Shown: positions 170 to 60,612 of the stretch, piece by piece | Numbering within the stretch: the first letter of the stretch is position 1 | Layout: each line of letters starts with the position of its first letter | Assembly (NCBI GenBank): GCA_951799405.1 | Contig: OX637343.1 | Location: 14,548,524 to 14,612,523, forward strand | Length of the DNA stretch: 64,000 bases | Direction of reading: 5' to 3' | Origin: Agapetus fuscipes | Lineage: Eukaryota; Arthropoda; Insecta; Trichoptera; Glossosomatidae | Position numbers and translations under genes: made by a program | The notes under the pieces: generated by a model | What the model saw: the letters and a program-made list of their open reading frames with translations, nothing else | The model's database searches: none | Told to the model about the DNA's origin: nothing

Positions 170-802
170 TCATTCCCATTATTGTGAAAATAAATAGGTT
201 CAATAATTATAACCCTTTTGATTACAAACGTGACAAAAAAGTTCATACTATACATAGATGCATTTTTTAAATAAATAATTATTTTTTAAAATCGTGCTAA
301 AATTGATGAAGATAATAATAATGATTATTGTTATGTTCACATTTTTAACAAGTTATAATCATCGTTTTAACAACTTAACAGGGCATTTAATGAAGCGGAG
401 AAATCTCGAGCTCGAGCAATTATGATTGTTCGTCTAATTCGTGTTCGTTGTATGAAGTTTCCCTGGCATAGCGAGCTTTCACATTTCTGGCATATTACGA
501 AGGTGCATAGAAACTATTAAAATTCCTGTCAAATAGAAAGATAATTTGTTCGCTGTATACAACTGTATACATACGCTGTATACAACAAGTGATTTCTGAG
601 CCTCTTTTGCTTTGTGTAAACACTTCGGAAAGTGTAGCTTCACGGGAGGGCCTTCTGCCACTCGCATCTCACATAACTTTTGCATGCGAGTCCTGTGACA
701 CATCCCCGGATGGGATGGATATACAGGGCGTGGGTCAGTGGAGGGGAGACTGACCCTGAGAGAAGGTGTTGTATACAACTATTTGTTTAAACTTACTTTA
801 TG
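170..802. other. AT-rich unannotated stretch
   Basis: No gene or recognised repeat was seen. The only long frame (about 100 codons on the minus strand) has no family resemblance. Confidence 0.5.
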
Positions 803-1335
803 ATCGGTCGGTAGTCATGTGGCAACACTTCAGACTCGTAAATGGAAGGTTGTGGGTTCGAATCCCGGCGAAGCACAAATAAAATACCATTTATGTTTTC
901 AAACATGCTCTTTGCTGTAATTTAACATTCAAAGATATATAAAAATTCAAAACTCAAATCAAATGCATGCCCACAAACAGACACGTCGTGTAAGTTATGA
1001 ATGTGTACTTACAAGTTAAAACCAAAACTCAAATGAATGACCTTCCCTGAAACAGGGGTGACATTGGCAAAGTGAACCATTTTTTACAGTATGGGTGGTC
1101 AGCCACATACCAACCTATAAGTTAAGGTTGGGTTGAAAAAATTATAAAACCTTTACCAAAGACCCGTCACTAAAGGTCCATCCAGCTTCACAGCAACTGG
1201 GTCTTGCTCGAGTATTGGCGTTTTTGTAGCGACGACCAAGCTCGTAAACACCTCTGCGGCACTAAAACAAGTGTGATAGATCCCTAGAGTCTCTGAAATC
1301 TAAGGAGTCACCCGCACAGAAGTTCTTTAAAAAAA
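803..1335 (+). repeat. SINE-B (long-tail subfamily), split by rep-A
   Basis: The tRNA-like head has the B-box GGTTCGAATCCCGG. It is followed by the SINE-B body (caaatgtgctcttcgctg, accggtcac, gacgaccaagctcg). This subfamily ends with a CTAGAGTCTCT... block, then CGCACAG and an A-run. The body is interrupted at about 924-1128 by a minus-strand rep-A copy, so the rep-A insertion is younger. Confidence 0.85.
932..1128 (-). repeat. rep-A inserted in SINE-B
   Basis: Recognised by the reverse-complement rep-A blocks (ccttccctgaaacagggg, gtgaaccattttttacag, ccaacctataagtt). A short deletion removes the GCAACTCTTGCC region. No clean target duplication is visible. Confidence 0.8.
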
Positions 1336-2767: not shown

Positions 2768-3172
2768 CTTTTTTTTTTTTTTAAGAAATCCTGTGCGGGA
2801 GACTCCCTAGATTCTAAAGACTCTAGGGGTCTATGACACTTGTTGTAGTGCCGCAGAGGTGTACGAGCTTGGTCGTCGCTACAAAGCGCCAATACTCGAG
2901 CAAGACCCAGTTGCTGTAAGGATGGATGGACCTTTGGTGACCGGTCATTAGTAAAGGTTTATGAATTTTTCAACCCAGCGAAGAGCACATTCGAAATATA
3001 AATGGTATATTTTTGTGCTCCGCCGGGATCCGAATCCACAACCTTCCATTTACGAGTCCGAAGTGTTGCCACTACGGACTACGGACCGGTCCAAGATGCC
3101 AACGACACGCGGTGTACCTGAGCGGTTACCCATCCAAGCACTGACCACGCCCAATGTTGCTTAACCTTAATT
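2768..3172 (-). repeat. Composite 5S-SINE-B (long-tail subfamily)
   Basis: Reading the minus strand, a partial 5S rRNA-like module (about 3093-3172: gttaagcaacattgggcg, ggatgggtaaccgctcagg, accgcgtgtcgttgg) runs directly into the SINE-B tRNA-like head (accggtccgtagtcc). The SINE body, the CTAGGGAGTCTCCCGCACAG block and a poly-A (poly-T here) end follow. It shows that the 5S and tRNA-like parts move as one unit. Confidence 0.8.
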
Positions 3173-6112: not shown

Positions 6113-6500
6113 AACTACTGACTGGTCCGCAGTCCAGTGGTAACACTTCACACTCGTAAATGAAAGGTTGTGAATTCGAATCCCGGCAGGGCACACAAAA
6201 ATATATGTAGTCCAGTGGCGAAGGGTGCCATACACGCCGGTTCCCATCGGCTTCCCTTTTAAAATGATGTAACAAAGTAGTTAAAAAATATAGGCATAAA
6301 GTAAAAAAAAATACATTTAAAACCAAAGAAACAATACGTATTTTTCCCCCATTGAAACCATGCAGTCTACTTTATTATCATTTTTGCCTCATTTTAAACG
6401 GGAAACCGATGGGAATCGGCTTGTATGGCACCCTTCGCCATTGATAGGTACCATATTTTATATTTTCAAATGTGCTCTTCGCTGGGTTGGTATACATTTT
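6113..6500 (+). repeat. SINE-B split by MITE-N
   Basis: The head at 6121-6196 (ctggtccgcagtccagtgg, attcgaatcccggcagggc) is followed, after a MITE, by the continuation at 6450-6500 (tattttcaaatgtgctcttc, gctgggttgg), where this copy ends. Confidence 0.75.
6213..6443. mobile_element. MITE-N (hAT-like TIRs)
   Basis: Terminal inverted repeats of 55 bp match at about 50 positions and begin CA(G/A)TGGCGAAGGGTGCC. The CAGTGG start is hAT-like, but no clean 8-bp target duplication is visible, so the superfamily is uncertain. The core is AT-rich and non-coding. Confidence 0.65.
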
Positions 6501-16502: not shown

Positions 16503-16734
16503 ACGAGCTTGGTCGTCGCTACAATGTGCCACTTCTCAAGCAAGACCCAGTTGCTCTAAGGCTGGATGGACCTTTTGATGAACGGTCTTTGGTTAAGGTT
16601 TATGAAGTTTTCAACGCAGCAAAGAACACATTTGAAAATATAATTTGTATTTTTTTTGTGCTCCGCCGGGATTCGAACCCACAACCTTCCATTTAAGAGT
16701 CAGAAGTGTTAACCCATAGACTACGGACCGGTTA
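16503..16734 (-). repeat. SINE-B copy
   Basis: Intact head (ggttcgaatcccggcggagc on the minus strand) and body to gacgaccaagctcgtt. The 3' end is lost. It directly abuts a SINE-C head in the same orientation. Confidence 0.8.
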
Positions 16735-17007
16735 AGAGCCGATTATACGAATATTTTACTAAACCGACTTGTAATTTTTTTGTGCTATTTTTACAATCTA
16801 GTTCATTCAATTCAATATTGAATCGACCTTGCCAACAATTAATAATTGATGAAAAAAATCTGGGAATCAATTTTTTGTTATATCTATCGTTGTATGCAAC
16901 ACGGAAAATAAAACAAAGAATTCGATACTTTTCGCTCCATTGGAATTTGCACAACCCATTGAGTAATAACTAATAACATACAGGAGCAGAAACTAACTTA
17001 CTGCATT
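16735..17007. other. Unannotated
   Basis: AT-rich with no recognised feature. Confidence 0.4.
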
Positions 17008-17422
17008 AATAATAATAATAATATTAGAATGATTTATTTGGTGAGCGCTGTTTTTGTGTGTATCACACCTCAAGAGCCCTCTTGCGAGCTTGGTCGTCGC
17101 TGTAGAAAGCGCCAATTCTCAAGCAAGACCCAGTTGTTGTAAGGTTGGATGGACCTTTCAGTGACCGGTCTTTGGTAAAGGTTTATGAATTTTTCAACTC
17201 AGCGAAGAGCACATTCGAAATATAAATGGTATTTTTTTTTTGTGCTCCGCCGGGATCCGAATCCACAACATTCCATTTACGAGTCCGAAGTGCTGCCACT
17301 GGACTACGGACCGGTCGGTACCTGAGCGGTTACCCGTCCAAGTACTATCCGCGCCCAATGTTGCTTAACTTCGGTGATCTATGGGAACCGGTGCTTTCAA
17401 TATGGTAACGTCGTTGACAAAA
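17008..17422 (-). repeat. Composite 5S-SINE-B
   Basis: On the minus strand a long 5S rRNA-like module (17319-17422: gtcaacgacgttaccat, caccggttcccatagatcac, gaagttaagcaacattggg, acgggtaaccgctcagg) leads into the SINE-B head, body and (ATT)n tail. About 20 bp at the 5S 3' end (accgcgtgtcgttggc) are deleted at the junction relative to 47717-47838. Confidence 0.85.
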
Positions 17423-22946: not shown

Positions 22947-23209
22947 TGTTCCTTGACTTATAGGTTGTTATGCGGCTGACCACCCATAATATAAAAATTG
23001 GTTCACTTTGCCAATGTCACCCCTGTTTCAGGGAAGGACGGCAAGAGTTGCAAGGCTTATGTTCATTTGAGATTGGGTTTTTATATTGTAGGTCCACATG
23101 CGGCATGTGTTAGCGCGAAATTATACATATCTGCTTGTGGGAATGCATTTAGTATGAATCTTAAATGATATATATCTTTGCAGCTTAGATTAGATTAGAT
23201 TAGATTAGA
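22947..23209 (+). repeat. rep-A copy
   Basis: Full length, with a clear (GATTA)n tail of five units. Confidence 0.9.
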
Positions 23210-23261: not shown

Positions 23262-23538
23262 TAATAATAATAATATTAGGATGATTTATTTGCTGAGCGC
23301 TGTTTTTGTGTGTGTCACATCTCAAGAGCCCGCTGCGAGCTTGGTTGTCGCTGTAGAAAGCGCCAATTCTCAAGCAATACCCAGTTGTTGTAAGGTTGGA
23401 TGGACCTTTCAGTGACCGGTCTTTGGTAAAGGTTTATGAATTTTTCAACACAGTGAAGAGCACATTTGCCGGGATTCGAATCTACAACCTTCCATTGACG
23501 AGTCCGAAGTGTTGCCACTGGAGTACGGGCCGGTTCAA
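23262..23538 (-). repeat. SINE-B, internally deleted
   Basis: The (ATT)n tail is at the left. The body jumps from gagcacattt directly to the B-box region, deleting about 35 bp. Confidence 0.8.
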
Positions 23539-24024
23539 GAAATTCATAAAATAAGGATAGGTTCATTATCCTTCGGAAGCGATTTTTCCTTCAGGATAAG
23601 AGCCCATTGTATCCTGGCTTGTTATTACTACCATCTTTTTATGTCCAATTCATTCTTAATTTCACTTATCTGATAAAGAACAAATTTCGGTTTTGCGTTT
23701 CATGTAAACATGTCACAAAAAGTTGTTGACGTTATTTAAATGATGGATCGCTGCAGATATGTTATTGTATTGACTTCACACGAAGATCAAATGTTCAGAT
23801 ATGATTCTGATTCGATCTATCATGTAGGATAGCACTCGCACAATCACTGACCGGTGAATTTCATGATTGATTTACCCCAAAAGACGTAGAACATTCCAGT
23901 ATGTATTGATTTTTTTTGTGATAAAAATGCTATACAAGATGAGATATTTTTTTTAATTCTGAATGAGTGATCACTGCTAAAAACAGTGCACAAACGGGAT
24001 TAAAAAAAATATAAACTTGTATCT
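23539..24024. other. Unannotated
   Basis: Nothing recognised. Confidence 0.45.
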
Positions 24025-24320
24025 ATTTATTTTTTTGAGCTCTATTTTTGCGTGAATCACGCCTTATGATCAATCAAGCCTTCTGTGATTTTGACTGTCG
24101 CTGTAGAAAGCGTCAATTACGTAAGCAAAACCCGGTTGCTATAAGGCTGGATGGACCTTTTAGTGACCGGTCTTTTGGTAAAGATTTTATGAATTTTTCA
24201 ACCCAGCGAAGGGCAAATTTGAAAATATAAATGGTATATTTTTTGTGCTCCGCCGGGATTCGAACCCACAACCTTCCATTCACGAGTCCGAAGCGCAAAC
24301 CACTGGACTACGGACCGGAA
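24025..24320 (-). repeat. SINE-B copy
   Basis: Good head (gggttcgaatcccggcggag on the minus strand). The region near the tail is diverged. Confidence 0.8.
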
Positions 24321-24379
24321 AGGTAGATACTTTACTCATTTCGCTATCATTTACTGTCCGTGCTATCTTGCGACTAGAA

Positions 24380-27618: not shown

Positions 27619-28140
27619 ACTATTCGACCGGTCCGTAGTCCAGTGGCAACACACTTCGGACTCGTAAATGGAAGGTTGTGGATTCGAATCCCGGCGGAGC
27701 ACACAAATATACCATTTATATATCCAAATGTGCTCTTCGCTGGGTTGAAAAATTCATAAACCTTTGCCAAAGACCGGTCACTGAAAGGTCCATCCAACCT
27801 TGCAACAACTGGGTCTTGTTTGAGAATTGGCGCTTCCTACAGCGTCGACCAAGCTCTTAGAGGGCTTTTGAGGTGTGATACACACTTCACTTTGCCAATG
27901 TCACCCCTGTCTCAGGGAAGGACGGCAAGAGTTGCAGGGTGTATGTCCATTTGAGATTTGGTTTTTATGTTGTAGGTTCACATGAGGCATGTGCAAGCGC
28001 GAACTTGTACGTGTCTGGTTGTGAGAATGCATGTAATGTGAATCTCCAATGTAACATATCTTTGCAACTTAGATTAGATTAGATTAGAGATTAGATACAC
28101 ACAAAAACAGCGCTCACCAAGTATTATTAATCCTTTGAGA
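27619..28140 (+). repeat. SINE-B interrupted by rep-A
   Basis: Full head (accggtccgtagtccagtgg, gattcgaatcccggcggag) and body to gatacacac, then rep-A, then gatacacac again and the rest of SINE-B (aaaaacagcgctcacc). Confidence 0.9.
27886..28093 (+). repeat. rep-A, 5' truncated, with 9-bp target duplication
   Basis: Starts abruptly at ttcactttgccaatg and ends in (GATTA)n. GATACACAC flanks it exactly (27877-27885 and 28094-28102), and in uninterrupted SINE-B this site occurs once. 5' truncation, a simple-repeat tail and a target duplication together show insertion by target-primed reverse transcription. Confidence 0.95.
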
Positions 28141-30778: not shown

Positions 30779-31468
30779 CCTTGAATGTAGCTAAAATGAG
30801 GCCCGCACATTTAAAAAAAGTAAAAAAAGTCGTATTAAAAACTAGATAGCTTGGGTGGGTCTTGGCTGAACCCAGGATTCTCCTATACTATCGACACTCT
30901 TTTTCTGACTCTCTCGTCTGTCCATCGCCTTTGCTCTCCAGCCACGTCGTATGTCCACCTTTGTTGCATTTGAGTCCACACTGTATTCATCTCATTTGTG
31001 GCCTTAAAATTAGTTAAAAACTAATGAGGCCGCCGAGAAAAAATCTAATTAGAAACATCCGTGCAAAAAACGTTGCGAATCTATTTTGAGGGGAAAACCG
31101 CTGTCTACCTTTTTTATTTACCGCGAAGGATAAACGTTTTTCTGAAAGATACCGTGTTTATATTTAAAAAGTATTATAATGTAACGATTCTATTGGTTTT
31201 GCATCATACTACTGCAAATACATGCTAGACGTCCTTACTCAATAAAAGGAACAAACCCTATACGTTCAGAGTAGATAAACAAAGATTACAAAGTTTATTT
31301 TGTGCACCATATGTATGAAAAAAGTAGCTTCCTAACCTTACGATGTAAGCCAGACAATCTATTTTAGGATCACCGTTCACCTAACTATCTTATCTGTTAT
31401 AGGAAAAAATGTATACGCACCTTTCTCATTTGGATTTTTAGTAATTTTGTATTTTTTGTTTGTTGCAG
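30779..31468. other. Unannotated, intron side of the FAM43 exon
   Basis: Directly precedes the splice acceptor. A pyrimidine-rich run (ttgtattttttgtttgttgcag) ends at 31468. No further exon was seen. Confidence 0.5.
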
Positions 31469-33276
31469 GAGAAGGATGCGTGGACAAGCCTCTGTCAACT
31501 CTGTGGAGGAACTACAACCAGTCTTCCAAGCCAGATGTGGTGATGAAACTGTCCATCACCAACTCTGGATTGAAAGGCATCACCAAAGAGCATGGACTGA
31601 CTGAATACTGGGCTCACAGAATCACCTTCTGTTCGAGTCCAACGGAATTCCCTAAAATATTCTGTTGGGTCTACAGACACGAAGGTAGAAAATTGAAGCA
31701 TGAATTGAGATGCCATGCTGTGTTGTGCTCGAAGGATTCCGTTGCTAAAAGGATAGCTACAGAACTTCAAGCGAAGATCCAGCAAGCTCTTTTGGAGTTT
31801 AAAAGAGATAAGATATCAAGGCAGAATGCTAGGTTGAGTTTAGCAAATTCAGTTTACGAAAACCCTAGTATGCCCAGGAGAAAGATTTTGTTGAGTGTCG
31901 GTGCAAACAATTATAAACCTCCATTGGAGAGGTCGAAGTCAGCACCTAAATTGACTGCTATTGAAGAAATGTGCTCGGAAGAAGATGAAGAAGAGCTGCT
32001 GGCAAATACTGCTTTAAACTCTAGAACGTGGACCAAAGACAATTCCGCTTTGAAGGTGTGCTGCAAAGCTGAAGAAATATTCCCCTCGTACACTTTGGGC
32101 AGGCGGAAATGTGAACGCAGTAGCTGTGACAGGAAAATTAGCTTACCAGAATCTAGAAGTCAAATTGAAGAGTTGCCATTCCAGAGTAATCAGGTTCTGG
32201 AAGATAGCAAGTTCAAAAATGTTGATGACTATGAATGCGTAAATAACACTGATGACATTGTCGATGAAAGCAACAGGTTAGAAGTACACGATGATGGAAT
32301 TGATGATTGCGGATTTGGTAGAAATGTTGAAGCTGAATTTCAAAGAAGTCTGTCTTCCAGGAGATCAAACAACTCCAACAGGGTTACCTTCAGCTTCTCC
32401 AACGTTTCGGAATACAGCGATAAGAATGAAGTAGAAGATATTAACGGAGAAGATGATGTGTTTTACTGTGAAACTGATGATCACCACGAAGAAAGCAACG
32501 AGGCTGAAATCAAGGAAGAAAGTATTGAAAAGGCTGAAAGCAACGTTGATCAAATATGCAGAAAGACTAACTTTTTAGTCTTAGACAGCGACGAGGGATC
32601 CATATCAAGCGGATGCGAATCAGCAAGCACCGTAACATCTTCTGACATTGAGATGACGTCTCTTCCGTGCAACTTTACCCAAAACGATTACGACCAAGAG
32701 AAACCTGAAAAAGTGAGCGTTTTGGAAAGAGTACAAAGCTTTGAGCAATTGTTCATGCGAGAGAAAAGCAGTTCAATCAGAAGTGTCCAATCTTCATTCA
32801 ATACAAACTTCACTTACGGGAAGTGCTCAAGGAGTTTCAGAATAGGTGGTCATCAACGCGGCATTGAAACAAACTCTGAAATCACTGGATCAAGCCCCAG
32901 TGACTCCGCTTGCTTTTCTTCTACAAGTGAAACTGGTCCTGCAAGCTGCAGCGATGAAGTCAATCTAGTCCCTTTGGGGGAGAAGCACGATGGAATTAGA
33001 CGGACCTATCTTCGAGGCTTTACGTTTCCTCCTTCGACTGATGACATCGGTGAGACAGATTTAGAGAGTGCGGTGTTCTTGAGCCAGTCTTCCATGGACA
33101 GCGAGAACCTCAGCTTGCCACCTTTGAAGGAATTCACAAGCAATTACAAGGAGCAAGGGGATCCGGTGGGAGGAGACAGTGACAGCGCTTGTAGTGTGGA
33201 GTCTGGATACTCGGAGCTCTTGGATGGAGCTGGAGGTCCAAATGAATGCATTATTGGTAGCACTGTGATGGTTTAG
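31469..33276 (+). CDS. FAM43: FAM43-family PTB/PID protein, last coding exon (partial)
   Basis: The exon starts after AG at 31467-31468 with GA completing a split codon (phase 1), encodes 602 further residues and stops at TAG. The in-frame codons before 31469 (opening with TTG) are intron. The first ~125 residues look like the main part of a phosphotyrosine-binding fold: GCVDKPLSTLW, KPDVVMKLSITNSGLKGIT, YWAHRITFCSS, FPKIFCWVYRH and LRCHAVLCSK, then an amphipathic helix (ATELQAKIQQALLEFKR). The block YKPPLERSKSAPKL at exon residues ~148-161 and the acidic EEDEEEL that follows are, as remembered, hallmarks of FAM43A/B. The remaining ~430 residues are Ser/Asp/Glu-rich and probably disordered. 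The expected role is a cytoplasmic adaptor of poorly known function. The protein N-terminus and the first PTB strands are missing and must lie on exons upstream. Confidence 0.9.
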
Positions 33277-44771: not shown

Positions 44772-45093
44772 TTTTTTTTTTTTAAGAAATCCTGTGCGGG
44801 AGACTCCCTAGATTCTAGAGACTCTAGGGGTCTATGACACTTGTTGTAGTGCCGCAGAGGTGTACGAGCTTGGTCGTCGCTACAAAGCGCCAATACTCAA
44901 GCAAGACCCAGTTGCTGTAAGGCTGGATGGACCTTTGGTGACCGGTCATTGGTAAAGGTTTATGAATTTTTCAACCCAGTGAAGAGCAAATTTGAAAATA
45001 TAAATGGTATATTTTTGTGCTCCGCCGGGATTCAAACCCACAACCTTCCCATTCAGAGTCCGCAGTGTTACCACTGAGCTACGGACCGGTCAA
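44772..45093 (-). repeat. SINE-B (long-tail subfamily)
   Basis: Near-complete reverse copy with tail ttttaagaaatcctgtgcgg. The head has gagctacggaccgg at its start. It carries no 5S module. Confidence 0.9.
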
Positions 45094-45146
45094 ATTATCC
45101 TTCGATGAGACTTTATTTACTTTCTATCAATAGATTCGTTTTGGAG

Positions 45147-45985: not shown

Positions 45986-46172
45986 GGTTGTTGTAAGGCT
46001 GGATGGACCTTTTGATGACCGGTCTTTGGTAAAGGTTTATGAATTTTTCAACCCAGCGAAGAGCAAATTTGAAAATATAAATGGTATATTTTTTGTGCTC
46101 CGCTGGGATTCGAACCCACGACCTTCCAGTTACGAGTCCGAAGTGTTACTTCCTGGACTACGGACCGGTCCA
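45986..46172 (-). repeat. SINE-B 5' part
   Basis: The head (tcgtgggttcgaatcccagc) and body to caaccttacaaca-type sequence. 3' truncated. Confidence 0.85.
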
Positions 46173-46173
46173 A

Positions 46174-46335
46174 TATATAGTGCAACATCTTGCCGTGCTT
46201 TCTCCGATAGGGGTCACAGTGACGAGTGGAACATATTTATTTTTACAGGGAAGGGGACCGGTGCTACACCGACCACTTCACTTAGAGTGGGGATGGGGGC
46301 TGGTACTCATTTCTTGTGAAGGCTGAGTGAGATAG
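46174..46335 (-). repeat. SINE-C 3' part
   Basis: atatatagtgcaacatcttg to ttgtgaaggctgagtgag. Abuts the SINE-B head. Confidence 0.75.
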
Positions 46336-47052: not shown

Positions 47053-47320
47053 TTCTTTGTATTCCTTGACTTATAGTTTGGTATGAGGCTGACCACCCAT
47101 GCTGTAGAAAATGGTTCACTTTGCCAATGTCGCCCCTGTTTCAGGAAAGGTCGGCAAGAGTTGCAGGGCTTATGCTCATTTCAGATTGGATTTTTATATT
47201 GTAGGTCCACATGCGGCATGTGTAAGTGCGAACTTATACATGTCTGCTTGTGGGAATGCGTTTAATATGAATCTTTAATGATATATATCTTTGCAATTTG
47301 GATTAGATTAGATTAGATAC
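47053..47320 (+). repeat. rep-A copy
   Basis: Complete, with a (GATTA)n tail that runs into the next LINE fragment. Confidence 0.9.
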
Positions 47321-47710
47321 CAACCCATCGAGAGAGTGTGGAATTTAAGTTGTGTCTCACTGTACATAGGGCCCTGAACGGCACGGCACTCCCATGTCTC
47401 GCTGAGCTATGTTCTGTCGACAAGGCTTCAAAACGACCACTACGCTCTGCCCTTACTGCTGTCAACAAGGTCATAGTGCCCAAAATAGCGAACACATCAA
47501 ATTTTGCAGACAGGAGCTTTGCGGTGGCCGGGCCGGTTGCCTGGAACAATTTCCCCTTCGGTGTTCGCGCGAACCAGCCTACCACCACCTTCAGAAAGGA
47601 ACTGAAGACACTGCTTTTCTCCAGAAGCCATGGCGCCCTTGAGATGGTCCTGGACCATTAAATGGCGCCACAAGAAAGAAATCATCCATCATCATCATTA
47701 TCCATACATC
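47320..47710 (+). mobile_element. Non-LTR 3' end (family Q), frame open
   Basis: An open frame to the stop at 47661 includes EFKLCLTVHRALNGTALPCL, then ADRSFAVAGPVAWNNFPFGV, and FRKELKTLLFSR. This is the best-preserved Q tail. The 3' UTR ends in (ATC)n. RT catalytic motifs are upstream of the truncation. Confidence 0.75.
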
Positions 47711-47716
47711 AATTTA

Positions 47717-47838
47717 GTCAACGACGTTACCATGTTGAAAGCACCGGTTCCCATAGATCACCGATGTTAAGCAACATTGGGCGCGGACAGTACTTGGATG
47801 GGCTACCGCTCAGGTACACCGCGTGTCGTTGGCATCTT
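47717..47838 (+). repeat. 5S rRNA-derived module of SINE-B
   Basis: 122 bp, near full-length 5S: gtcaacgacgttaccatgtt, caccggttccc, gatcaccgatgttaagcaac, gggcgcgg, ggatgggctaccgctcagg, accgcgtgtcgttggc. The positions matching the 5S box A, intermediate element and box C are largely kept. It is fused two bases before a tRNA-like head, so it is part of the SINE and not a 5S gene. Confidence 0.9.
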
Positions 47839-48145
47839 GGACCGGTCCGTAGTCCGTAGTGGCAACACTTCGGACTCGTAAATGGAAGGTTGTGGATCGG
47901 ATCCCGGCGGAGCACAAAAATATACCATTTACATTTCGAATGTGCTCTTCGCTGAGTTGAAAAATTCATAAACCTTTACCAAAGACCGGTCACTGAAAGG
48001 TCCATCCAACTTCACAACAACTGGGTCTTGCTTGAGAATTGGCGCTTTCTACAGCGATGACCAAGCTCGCAGAGGGCTCTTGAGGTGTGATACACACAAA
48101 AACAGCGCTCACCAAATAAATCATCCTAATATTATTATTATCAAA
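47839..48145 (+). repeat. SINE-B tRNA-like head, body and (ATT)n tail
   Basis: Head accggtccgtagtccgtagtgg (small internal repeat) and B-box region ggatcggatcccggcgg. The full body ends gcgctcaccaaataaatc, then aatattattattat. With the preceding 5S module it forms the most complete composite copy. Confidence 0.9.
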
Positions 48146-48239: not shown

Positions 48240-48292
48240 TCTAACAGTTCTATAAGTCAAGTTCTAGCATGGTACCAAAACAAAAGATCCAT
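48240..48292 (+). repeat. Leader sequence shared with 46437-46487
   Basis: The same block directly before a different LINE tail. GGTACC repeats bound its right half as a small palindrome. Confidence 0.5.
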
Positions 48293-48738
48293 GTGGTACC
48301 TACATCAAACCCCACCAAAAGACAGTCCTTCAAGCTCTGCATTGGCTGAAAATCCCTGAGAGGATTACCTATAAAGTTGGTCTGCTCACTTTTAAAGCAC
48401 TACGTGGGAGTGCTCCGGGGTACCTGATGGAGCTGGTGTCTCCAACAACTATAACCTTGCGTGGACAAACACTGAGGTCAGCTGCATCAAGAAGCAGCTG
48501 CCTGGAAGTCCCAGCAAGAAGACCCCACACTGTTTTTGAAAACAGGGCATTCAAGGCAGCCGCTCCAATGACCTGGAATGCTTTTCCTGACACACTGAGG
48601 GAACTGGATTTGGAGACGCAATTTAAAAGAAGTCTCAAAACTCACCTCTTCGTCCAATCATATGGACAAGCGCCTTTGTAGTGACACATTGTCATAAAAG
48701 GCGCTATATAAATTCTGTGTTTATTATTATTATTATTA
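48293..48738 (+). mobile_element. Non-LTR 3' end (family Q), longest fragment
   Basis: Reads VLQALHWLKIPERITYKVGL, LTFKALRGSAPGYLMELVSP, LRSAASRSSCLEVPARRPH and FENRAFKAAAPMTWNAFPD, ending FKRSLKTHLFVQSYGQAPL. LHWL...RI.YK...L..KAL.G.AP.YL is the conserved tail of CR1/L2-type elements. The UTR ends gcgctatataaattctgtg with an (ATT)n tail. Confidence 0.8.
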
Positions 48739-48756
48739 GTCTGTCCATGTGGAATT

Positions 48757-49018: not shown

Positions 49019-49020
49019 CT

Positions 49021-49275
49021 AATCTAATCTAATCTAATCTAATCTAATCTAATCTAATCTAATCTAATCTAATCTAATCTAATCTAATCTAATCTAATCT
49101 AATCTAATCTAATCTAATCTAATCTAATCTAATCTAATCTAATCTAATCTAATCTAATCTAATCTAATCTAATCTAATCTAATCTAATCTAATCTAATCT
49201 AATCTAATCTAATCTAATCTAATCTAATCTAATCTAATCTAATCTAATCTAATCTAATCTAATCTAATCTAATCT
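49021..49275 (-). repeat. Pure (AATCT)51 array, expanded rep-A tail
   Basis: 51 perfect tandem copies with no interruption, followed by aagctgcaaaggtat, which is the last 15 bp of rep-A in reverse. It is therefore the simple-repeat tail of a severely 5'-truncated rep-A copy. Confidence 0.95.
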
Positions 49276-49290
49276 AAGCTGCAAAGGTAT

Positions 49291-49451: not shown

Positions 49452-49942
49452 CTATTCTTAGACATTTTAGTCGTTGGTTGAGCCAACGCTTTGACACACT
49501 AATGATGCATTTGTATGAAACCCTGTCAATCCAAGATGGCCGCAAGTGAACAGCTGATTTGTTTTCATACAAATATTACAAAATTCGGTAGGTAAGAATG
49601 ACCGTGGTGATGAAATTTTCAGGTCGGGTAATCTAATCTAATCTAATCTAAGTTGCAAAGATATGTTACATTGGAGATTCACATTACATGCATTCTCACA
49701 ACCAGACACGTACAAGTTCGCGCTTGCACATGCCTCATGCGAACCTACAACATAAAAACCAAATCTCAAATGGACATACACCCTGCAACTCTTGCCGTCC
49801 TTCCCTGAGACAGGGGTGACATTGGCAAAGTGAACCATTTTTACAGCATGGGTGGTCAGCCGCATACCAACCTATAAGTCTATTTTTACTAAATTTGTTT
49901 ATCAAAGCGTGGGCTCAACCGACGACTAAAATGTCTAAGAAT
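49452..49942. mobile_element. MITE-E interrupted by rep-A
   Basis: Left arm 49452-49500, core to 49621, then rep-A, then the right arm (gcgtgggctcaaccgacgac, taaaatgtctaagaat) at 49904-49942. Confidence 0.8.
49629..49880 (-). repeat. rep-A inserted in MITE-E
   Basis: Complete reverse copy of the CTCACAACCAG subfamily. Confidence 0.9.
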
Positions 49943-50145
49943 GTTTGAATGTCTATTTCCATATTTTAAATTATTTTATGAAAGAAAGTTTTTCACAGTA
50001 AAGATGATTATATTATCTAGATTTTCAGCGGTTACTTTGTGGAAGTTTAGTTTTTATTTAAGCTTATATTAACAATCATTATTATAATTATTATTTATTC
50101 TAAAACTGATATAAATGATTTTGTTTTATCGGAAATGAACAATAA
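49943..50145. other. AT-rich spacer
   Basis: Nothing recognised. Confidence 0.4.
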
Positions 50146-50462
50146 CCCGGTCCGTAGCTCAGTGGTAACACTGCGAACCCTAAATAGGAAGGTTGTGGGT
50201 TCGAATCCCGGCGGAGCACAAAAAATATACCATTTATATTTTCAAATTTGCTCTTCGCTGGGTTGAAAAATTCATAAACCTTTAACAATGACCGGTCACC
50301 AAAGGTCCATCCAGCCTTAGAGCAACTGGGTCTTGCTTGAGTATTGGCGCTTTGTAGCGACGACCAAGCTCGTAAACCTCTGAGGCACTACAATAAGTGG
50401 CATAGACCCCTAGAGTCTCTAGACTCTAGGGAGTCTCCCGCACAGGATTTCTTAAAAAAAAA
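50146..50462 (+). repeat. SINE-B, complete long-tail copy
   Basis: ccggtccgtagctcagtgg, gtgggttcgaatcccggcgg, the complete body, cgcacaggatttctt and an A-run. The head keeps a GTAGCTCAGTGG A-box, the best tRNA match in the window. Confidence 0.9.
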
Positions 50463-50578
50463 CCTTTTTGATCTCTAGTCTAAAAAGATAACCATTACAA
50501 TACAAATATTTGAACTTTAACAAATATCTTTTAGCTTATCATAAAAAATGAAATCTTAGACTTATAAGATGAAATAAA

Positions 50579-51228: not shown

Positions 51229-51482
51229 ATCTAATCTAATCTAAGCTGCAAAGATATACCTCATTTAAGATTTATATTCAATGCATTCTAACAAGCAGAC
51301 ACGCATAATTTCGCGCTCACACATGCCGCATGTGGACCTACAGTATAAAAAACCCAATCTCAAATGAACATAAGCCCTGCAACTCTTGCCGACCTTCCCT
51401 GAAACAGGGGTGACATTGGCAAAGTGAACCATTTTTTACAGTATGGGTGGTCAACCTAATACTAACCTATCAGTCAAGGAAT
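51228..51482 (-). repeat. rep-A copy
   Basis: Complete reverse copy, abutting MITE-G. Confidence 0.9.
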
Positions 51483-58382: not shown

Positions 58383-58760
58383 AGGTAAGCAACATTGGGC
58401 GCGGATAGTACTTGGATGGGTTACCGCTCAGGTACACCGCGTGTCGTTGGCATCTTGGACCGGTCCGTAGTCCAGTGGCAGCACTTCGGACTCGTAAAAG
58501 GAAGGTTGTGGATTCGGATCCCGGCGGAGCACAAAAATATACCTTTTATATTTCGAATGTGCTCTTCGCTGAGTTGAAAAATTCATAAACCTTTACCAAA
58601 GACCGGTCACTGAAAGGTCCATCCAACCTTACAACAACAGGGTCTTGCTTGAGAATTGGCGCTTTCTACAGCGACGACCAAGCTCGCAGAGGGCTCTTGA
58701 GGTGTGATACACACAAAAACAGCGCTCACCAAATAAATCATCCTAATAGTAGTATAGTAG
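58383..58760 (+). repeat. Composite 5S-SINE-B
   Basis: 5S module from about 58383 (taagcaacattgggcgcgg, ggatgggttaccgctcagg, accgcgtgtcgttggc), then accggtccgtagtccagtgg, the full SINE-B body and a degenerate TAGTAGTA tail. The 5' half of the 5S part is missing. Confidence 0.9.
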
Positions 58761-60171: not shown

Positions 60172-60519
60172 CTTCTTCTTCTTTTTGTGCCTCTTCTATC
60201 GAAGATCGGCGATCATCATGGCTATTTTGACTTTAGATGCTGCGGCTCGAAACAGGGACTTGGTGCTTCTGCCGAACCACTGTCGCAGGTTTTTCAGCCA
60301 GGATGTCCTTCGGCGTCCCTGAGATCTTCTCCCCTCAATCTCACCCTGTATGATAGGATGAAGGAGACGGTACTTCTCAATTCTCATTATGCGACCGAAG
60401 TACATAAGCTTTCTCTGCTTAATGGTAGGCAGGAGCTCCTTTGTAGTGCGCATTCGTTGAAGGACTTGTTCATTGGTGACTCGATCACGCCAAGAGATCC
60501 GAAGAATTTTTCGGTATAG
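60172..60519 (-). mobile_element. Non-LTR 3' end (family V) inside MITE-G
   Basis: The minus strand reads RTTKELLPTIKQRKLMYF then GRIMRIEKYRLLHPIIQG, and GRRRTSWLKNLRQWFG. It is flanked by acacttgttt and acagttgttt (10 bp, one difference), a target duplication. Confidence 0.85.
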
Positions 60520-60612
60520 ACAGTTGTTTGCTTGGGCATAAACAACACAAAAATCATCGCAGAGCTATGGGAGTTAGCGCATTAGAAAGAGCGGAAATTT
60601 TCAAGTAGGATA

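Follow-up and report, generated by a model that had tools for sequence, protein, structure and literature searches.

A 5S rRNA module in front of a retained tRNA-like head in SINE-B elements of the caddisfly Agapetus fuscipes

Some copies of the short interspersed element SINE-B in Agapetus fuscipes carry a 5S rRNA-derived module directly in front of a tRNA-like head, which raises the question of whether the two pol III modules are chance neighbours or parts of one mobile unit and, in the latter case, how they were joined. The window analysed here is a stretch of 64,000 nucleotides (64 kb) of contig OX637343.1. When the window was searched by blastn with the individual modules, 13 SINE-B copies proved to have a head, and in 4 of these the 5S rRNA module lies directly 5′ of it. 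In SINE-B, a head that resembles tRNA is followed by some 160 nt of body and by one of two tail types; the composites measure 372-425 nt and end in (ATT)n-like or A-rich sequence. The 4 composite and 9 tRNA-only head-bearing copies are thus short and dispersed, with a head-body-tail layout and a simple-repeat or A-rich 3′ end, as is characteristic of SINEs. The composites are referred to below as copies 1 to 4, and the tRNA-only copies by a coordinate at or near their 5′ end. The composites, with the parts of copy 1, are:

47717-48141, + strand: composite copy 1, with full 5S, common junction, head, and type 1 body and tail
47717..47835, + strand: 5S module of copy 1, full length from +1 (Rfam model 1-120, fold)
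47836..47842, + strand: junction zone of copy 1, where 5S gives way to the head, with an uncertainty of ~5 nt as to the exact point
47843..47915, + strand: tRNA-like head of copy 1 (called tRNA-Thr(cgt)-like by ARAGORN at 80%, at positions 8-80 when counted from 47836)
47916..48082, + strand: SINE-B body type 1 of copy 1 (blastn to other copies, alignment)
48083..48141, + strand: type 1 tail of copy 1, with hairpin GTGTGATACACAC, GCGCT, AAATAAATCATCC and (ATT)n
58386..58757, + strand: composite copy 2, in which 5S begins at module position 52 and is followed by the common junction, head, body and type 1 tail
17010..17418, − strand: composite copy 3, with 5S from +1, 5S 3′ end lost at the junction, head, body and type 1 tail
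2783..3165, − strand: composite copy 4, a mosaic in which 5S begins at module position 50 and is followed by the common junction, a type 1 head, and type 2 body and tail

The tRNA-only copies, all without 5S, are:

27623..27888, + strand: type 1, tail interrupted, head nearest to the composites (93.9-96.5%)
23262..23540, − strand: type 1, deletion just after the head
44784..45094, − strand: type 2 tail, body closest to that of copy 4 (97.5%)
50144..50453, + strand: type 2 tail
24020..24321, − strand: diverged, type 1-like tail
16504..16735, − strand: no tail found
45986..46176, − strand: no tail found
802..1327, + strand: type 2 tail, interrupted by another repeat
6120..6205, + strand: head, interrupted

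The 5S identity of the first module is clear in two of the composites. Copy 1 (47717-47834, +) matches the Rfam 5S_rRNA model with 85.8 bits (E 6.7e-17) and copy 3 (17418-17301, −) with 61.2 bits (E 2.1e-10), both from model position 1 and against a gathering score of 38. Copies 2 and 4 keep only the 3′ 57-58% of 5S, that is, module positions 52-118 and 50-118; by blastn they match the 118 nt module of copy 1 over 67 nt (E 5.9e-28) and 69 nt (E 1.1e-24), respectively, and their Rfam scores of 29.3 and 18.8 bits both lie below gathering. The near full-length 5S of the initial annotation is therefore a property of two of the four composites, each of which begins at 5S +1, and does not extend to copies 2 and 4. 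Positions ~53 to 97 of 5S are present in all four, so the composites have the SINE3 trait of a 5S-derived 5′ head that includes the internal promoter region, with Rfam 5S at gathering in 2/4. Outside SINE-B no 5S was found in the window, either with Rfam at gathering or by blastn with the 118 nt module, and none stands upstream of the head in the nine tRNA-only copies. In copy 1 the Rfam alignment marks no non-standard pair, and the MFE fold of the module is a 5S-like three-way, both alone and inside the 411 nt element. The copy 3 module does not adopt a 5S-like three-way fold, probably because a deletion at its junction removed the 3′ strand of helix I. The 5′ truncations of copies 2 and 4, which differ in subfamily and tail type, lie no more than 2 nt apart at 5S ~51-53 (Drosophila-like numbering), which could reflect chance or a reverse transcriptase stop; a 5S truncation at position 46, in loop C, is described for human 5S/L1 chimeras in the available passages of PMC13174262.

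The second module was described at the outset as tRNA-like, and this description is upheld by ARAGORN, which at thresholds of 80% finds a tRNA in one register in 8/13 heads and in 13/650 shuffles. Default ARAGORN found no tRNA in the whole window, and neither did Rfam at E up to 1 in 49900-50500 (a tRNA-only copy) or in two composite regions, thus indicating that the head is a diverged tRNA relative. The heads show the SINE2 trait of A and B boxes at tRNA spacing (43-45 between A and B in 10/13 heads). The box scan did not place an A box before the B box in 3/13 heads (47717, 46176 and 6120), and the best A box of the copy 4 head has 3 mismatches.

The two modules had been reported to be joined at the same point in all four copies. 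This holds for three: GTTGGCATCTTGGACCGG occurs exactly at 47828-47845 (+), 58446-58463 (+) and 3086-3103 (−), so one junction is shared by 3/4 composites and by two composite subfamilies. Copy 3 departs from it, with CAGGTACCGACCGG at 17311-17324 (−) and 21 nt less between the common flanking motifs. Its subfamily partner, copy 2 (both with GTAGTCCAGTGGCAGCAC), keeps the common junction, so a later deletion in copy 3 is the simplest reading. In the nine tRNA-only copies homology starts a few bases from GACCGG, and upstream of their heads the 5S 3′ end finds 1-6 matches in 15 (random mean 3.4, random maximum 10). Since these copies start near GACCGG without 5S, the junction appears to link two natural ends, the 3′ terminus of 5S and the 5′ terminus of a complete SINE. 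Two of the tRNA-only copies, 23540 and 46176, also carry TTG or TTGG before the head, which leaves the joining point uncertain by ~5 nt.

A 5S 3′ end adjoining a SINE 5′ end is the pattern expected from template switching or RNA ligation in LINE-driven retrotransposition. Our preferred reading, to which we assign a probability of roughly 0.83, is that a type 1 SINE-B gained a complete 5S 5′ of its head, apparently once, through a template switch of a LINE reverse transcriptase or through RNA ligation, and that the product then spread as a unit. A mechanism is proposed where the LINE reverse transcriptase, on arriving at the 5′ end of the SINE RNA, would have jumped to the 3′ end of 5S rRNA; as an alternative first step, SINE RNA and 5S rRNA may have been ligated before reverse transcription. 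The composite would then have spread as one unit to give two subfamilies, and one composite would later have swapped its own body and tail for those of a type 2 SINE. The composite would be transcribed by pol III from 5S +1, and a CR1/L2-like LINE may mobilise it. Template switching has been proposed for the moth 5S/tRNA chimera HaSE3 (passages of PMC3272025), and switching or ligation is considered for human L1 copies that carry U6 in sense at their 5′ end (passages of PMC13174262). In the human 5S/L1 chimeras of the latter source, the 5S is typically antisense and truncated, whereas here it is in sense and full length in 2/4.

The same 5S-first order with one junction would also result at the DNA level, if a SINE-B had landed just where a 5S gene or pseudogene ends on its 3′ side and a transcript reading through from 5S into the SINE had turned into the mobile unit; that the full modules begin at 5S +1 agrees with such an origin. 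The insertion would, however, have had to fall no farther than ~5 nt from the 3′ end of mature 5S, and between 5S and head neither a duplicated target nor 5S spacer is seen, although ~5 nt give little room to show one. We consider this route unlikely.

For a fusion that happened once, the sequence of the heads is informative. Twelve copies were aligned, namely the four composites, seven tRNA-only copies with a head and the headless copy 56787; the alignment does not include the interrupted copies 802 and 6120. Omission of 56787 gives a head tree of 11 rows, and 46176 is absent from the body tree. In the head tree the four carriers of 5S form one group (support 82/87; 84% of 200 bootstrap trees) that adjoins the type 1 tRNA-only copies 27623 and 23540. 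The carriers also share two private bases: an A to G change in the B box (4/4 carriers versus 0/7 other aligned copies) and a change of CAAAT to CGAAT (4/4 versus 0/8); the diagnostic B-box position is A in copies 802 and 6120 as well. Among themselves, the heads of the composites share 96.5-99.1% identity; with the heads of six tRNA-only copies they share 83.3-90.6%, and with that of the seventh, 27623, 93.9-96.5%. Body sequence does not separate the composites, because in the body the tRNA-only copy 23540 matches those of type 1 as closely (95.2-97.6%) as they match one another (96.8-99.2%). The grouping of the four carriers and their two shared bases suggest that the fusion arose once and that its product moves as a unit. 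Together with three insertions that have an identical junction in two subfamilies, they support the initial proposal that the two modules move together.

Movement as a unit could in principle reflect segmental duplication of one composite instead of retrotransposition. In keeping with this, target-site duplications are not convincing at any of the 4 composites (the tRNA-only copy 45094 (−) has one candidate, with a match of 9/10), and some flanks share other repeats off the boundaries, including 239 nt at 84% in the 5′ flanks of copies 4 and 1, at unequal distances from the elements. Within 1000 nt flanks, however, no match among the four composites touches an element boundary, and the set comprises 2 full and 2 5′-truncated copies, as in retrotransposition, so duplication is very improbable. 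Of the 5′ ends at 5S +1 with target duplications that had been envisaged, the starts at +1 are thus seen in 2/4 window copies and the duplications are not convincing. Chance joining, through independent SINE-B insertions beside dispersed 5S pseudogenes, would accommodate the one junction of four that differs, but is hardly credible against a base-exact junction in 3 copies with flanks unrelated at the boundaries, a SINE part with private bases shared by the carriers, and a window in which no 5S was found outside SINE-B.

As first noted, 5S occurs with both tail types, in three copies with type 1 and in one with type 2. The latter, copy 4 (−), is of type 1 at 11/11 diagnostic sites before, and of type 2 at 17/18 after, a breakpoint at ~2975-2988. 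Its head is 99.1% identical to that of copy 1 and its body 97.5% identical to that of 45094, and in the body tree it groups with 45094, 50147 and 16732 (91/91). GTAGTCCGTAGTGGCAACAC with a 2-4 nt duplication is common only to copies 4 and 1. Copy 4 being a mosaic of two parents, the tail was swapped after the fusion and the 5S part need not predate the tail split; of the two histories first suggested, a swap is therefore supported, and a greater age of the 5S part is not required. The mosaic also indicates that switching or recombination occurs among SINE-B copies.

The type 1 tail, which consists of a 5 bp hairpin, GCGCT, AAATAAATCATCC and ATT repeats, was compared with two LINE 3′ ends that flank copy 1 on both sides:

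47317..47707, + strand: LINE 3′ end A, whose 3′ terminus resembles the type 1 tail (hairpin, GCGC, trinucleotide repeat)
48268..48739, + strand: LINE 3′ end B (hairpin, GCGCT, AAAT and (ATT)n)

For these LINEs, which were chosen by eye, the tail gave alignment scores of 27 with end A, reached by 5/2000 single-letter shuffles, and 23 with end B, reached by 10/2000. Both ends may be CR1/L2-like, judged by a C-terminal motif only, and neither has a match in Pfam. The reading frame of end B has a 79% relative on a 686-base contig. Another reading frame, at 60196-60564 (−), resembles by eye the C-terminus of a LINE reverse transcriptase and has no Pfam match. Against the proposed switch or ligation we have counted the restriction to four copies from one 64 kb window, the one differing junction, the lack of convincing target-site duplications, the moderate head-tree support (82/87), the body of 23540 and the modest LINE tail resemblance.

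Two putative promoters in tandem raise the question of which one is used. The B box has two mismatches to GGTTCGANTCC in all four composites (GATTCGGATCC in three of them and GGATCGGATCC in copy 1); among the nine tRNA-only B boxes, 5 have no mismatch, 3 have one and 1 has two. A TTTT follows the tRNA head in 6/7 tRNA-only copies that keep this stretch versus 0/4 composites at that place. The B-box mismatches and the loss of TTTT would fit a take-over by the 5S promoter. It is conceivable, if rather doubtful, that the 5S (type 1) promoter took over as the tRNA (type 2) B box and TTTT were lost in the lineage that expanded, and that the retained 5S fold could bind proteins such as TFIIIA or ribosomal protein L5 and thereby take the SINE RNA to ribosomes. 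In Alu, the 7SL-derived part is thought to bring the RNA to ribosomes. Other evidence does not favour a take-over. The tRNA-only copy 27623 also lacks TTTT after the head, and in composite copy 2 a different TTTT lies at element position 159. Of the two B-box changes, the first (G53A in tRNA numbering) is shared with the tRNA-only copies 27623 and 23540, which indicates that B-box decay began before the fusion. The second (A58G) is private to the composites and counts as one event, since all four share it, most simply by descent. In addition, the promoter part of the copy 1 5S agrees at 36/48 positions and the preceding part at 37/48 with D. melanogaster 5S; conservation is thus no higher in the promoter part, and this argues against simple promoter selection.

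Fusion with small RNAs is regarded as the way in which SINEs obtain new heads. In the composites a new head has been added and the old one is still present, a stage that can be compared with its own tRNA-only relatives in one window. The closeness of the copies (96.5-99.1% in the head) would make it possible to test directly whether the 5S promoter, once captured, drives the SINE and whether the older tRNA promoter decays afterwards. Chimeric 5S/tRNA SINEs are already known, and what seems new is a 5S placed ahead of a tRNA head that has been kept. The tRNA-5S class of the flying fox Pteropus medius, which we take to be the MEG-TR of Gogolevsky et al. 2009, reportedly has the order tRNA then 5S, the reverse of that in the composite. 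This RepeatMasker class, listed with 2,413 copies in the passages available from PMC7403528, resembles the composite in its tRNA-derived and 5S-derived parts and differs in being mammalian. In insects, HaSE3 of Helicoverpa armigera is a 5S rRNA-derived SINE that its authors regard as maybe the first insect 5S/tRNA-SINE chimera; like the composite, it combines a 5S head with a body and tail from a tRNA-derived SINE, but as far as the descriptions can be compared, 5S replaces the tRNA head in HaSE3 and precedes a retained tRNA head here (passages of PMC3272025). PxSE4, PxSE5 and other lepidopteran SINE3 elements likewise have a 5S head with A, IE and C boxes; they differ in that the 5S head stands alone, with ~63% identity to 5S in PxSE4 and PxSE5, and no double head of 5S and tRNA is mentioned in the parts of their descriptions at hand (PMC8010984, PMC10886601). 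Sbg9 of Blattella germanica is also an insect case of two fused SINE modules spreading as one, but it joins two SINEs (Sbg1 and Sbg8), whereas the composite joins a full 5S rRNA to a tRNA-headed SINE (passages of PMC9191728). In the accessible passages of the open-licence literature no SINE with 5S ahead of a retained tRNA head was found, and those of PMC5063351 (fungal SINEs), PMC8466645, PMC7245038, PMC3747384 and PMC8881205 (caddisfly genomes) make no mention of one. Searches of viral contigs (exact matches to a single junction pattern and a single body pattern), of prokaryote genome contigs (exact matches of one body pattern) and of phage and plasmid records (blastn with the 409 nt of 47717-48125) gave no match, and these nulls say little because none of the collections is an insect collection.

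Further features of the window were noted in passing. By eye, SINE-B copy 16732 (−) continues below 16504 on the minus strand into a second tRNA-like sequence, GTCGATAGTTCAGTTGGTAGAATGATTGCATTCC, which may be another SINE or a joint between two SINEs. A perfect (CTAAT)n array of 51.8 copies occupies 49019-49277; CTAATCTAAGCTGCAAAG, at the end of this array, is also present at 51236-51253 (+) and 23176-23193 (−), and owing to these further sites it may belong to another repeat family. The long reading frame at 31336-33276 contains Pfam PID_2 (profile 43-181, most of the domain) and matches FAM43A-like proteins. Among the best 120 of 882 matches, three of the seven best are at 56% over the full length, and the first named ones after the seven come from Lepidoptera and then Diptera; the frame probably represents the final exon of such a FAM43A-like gene.
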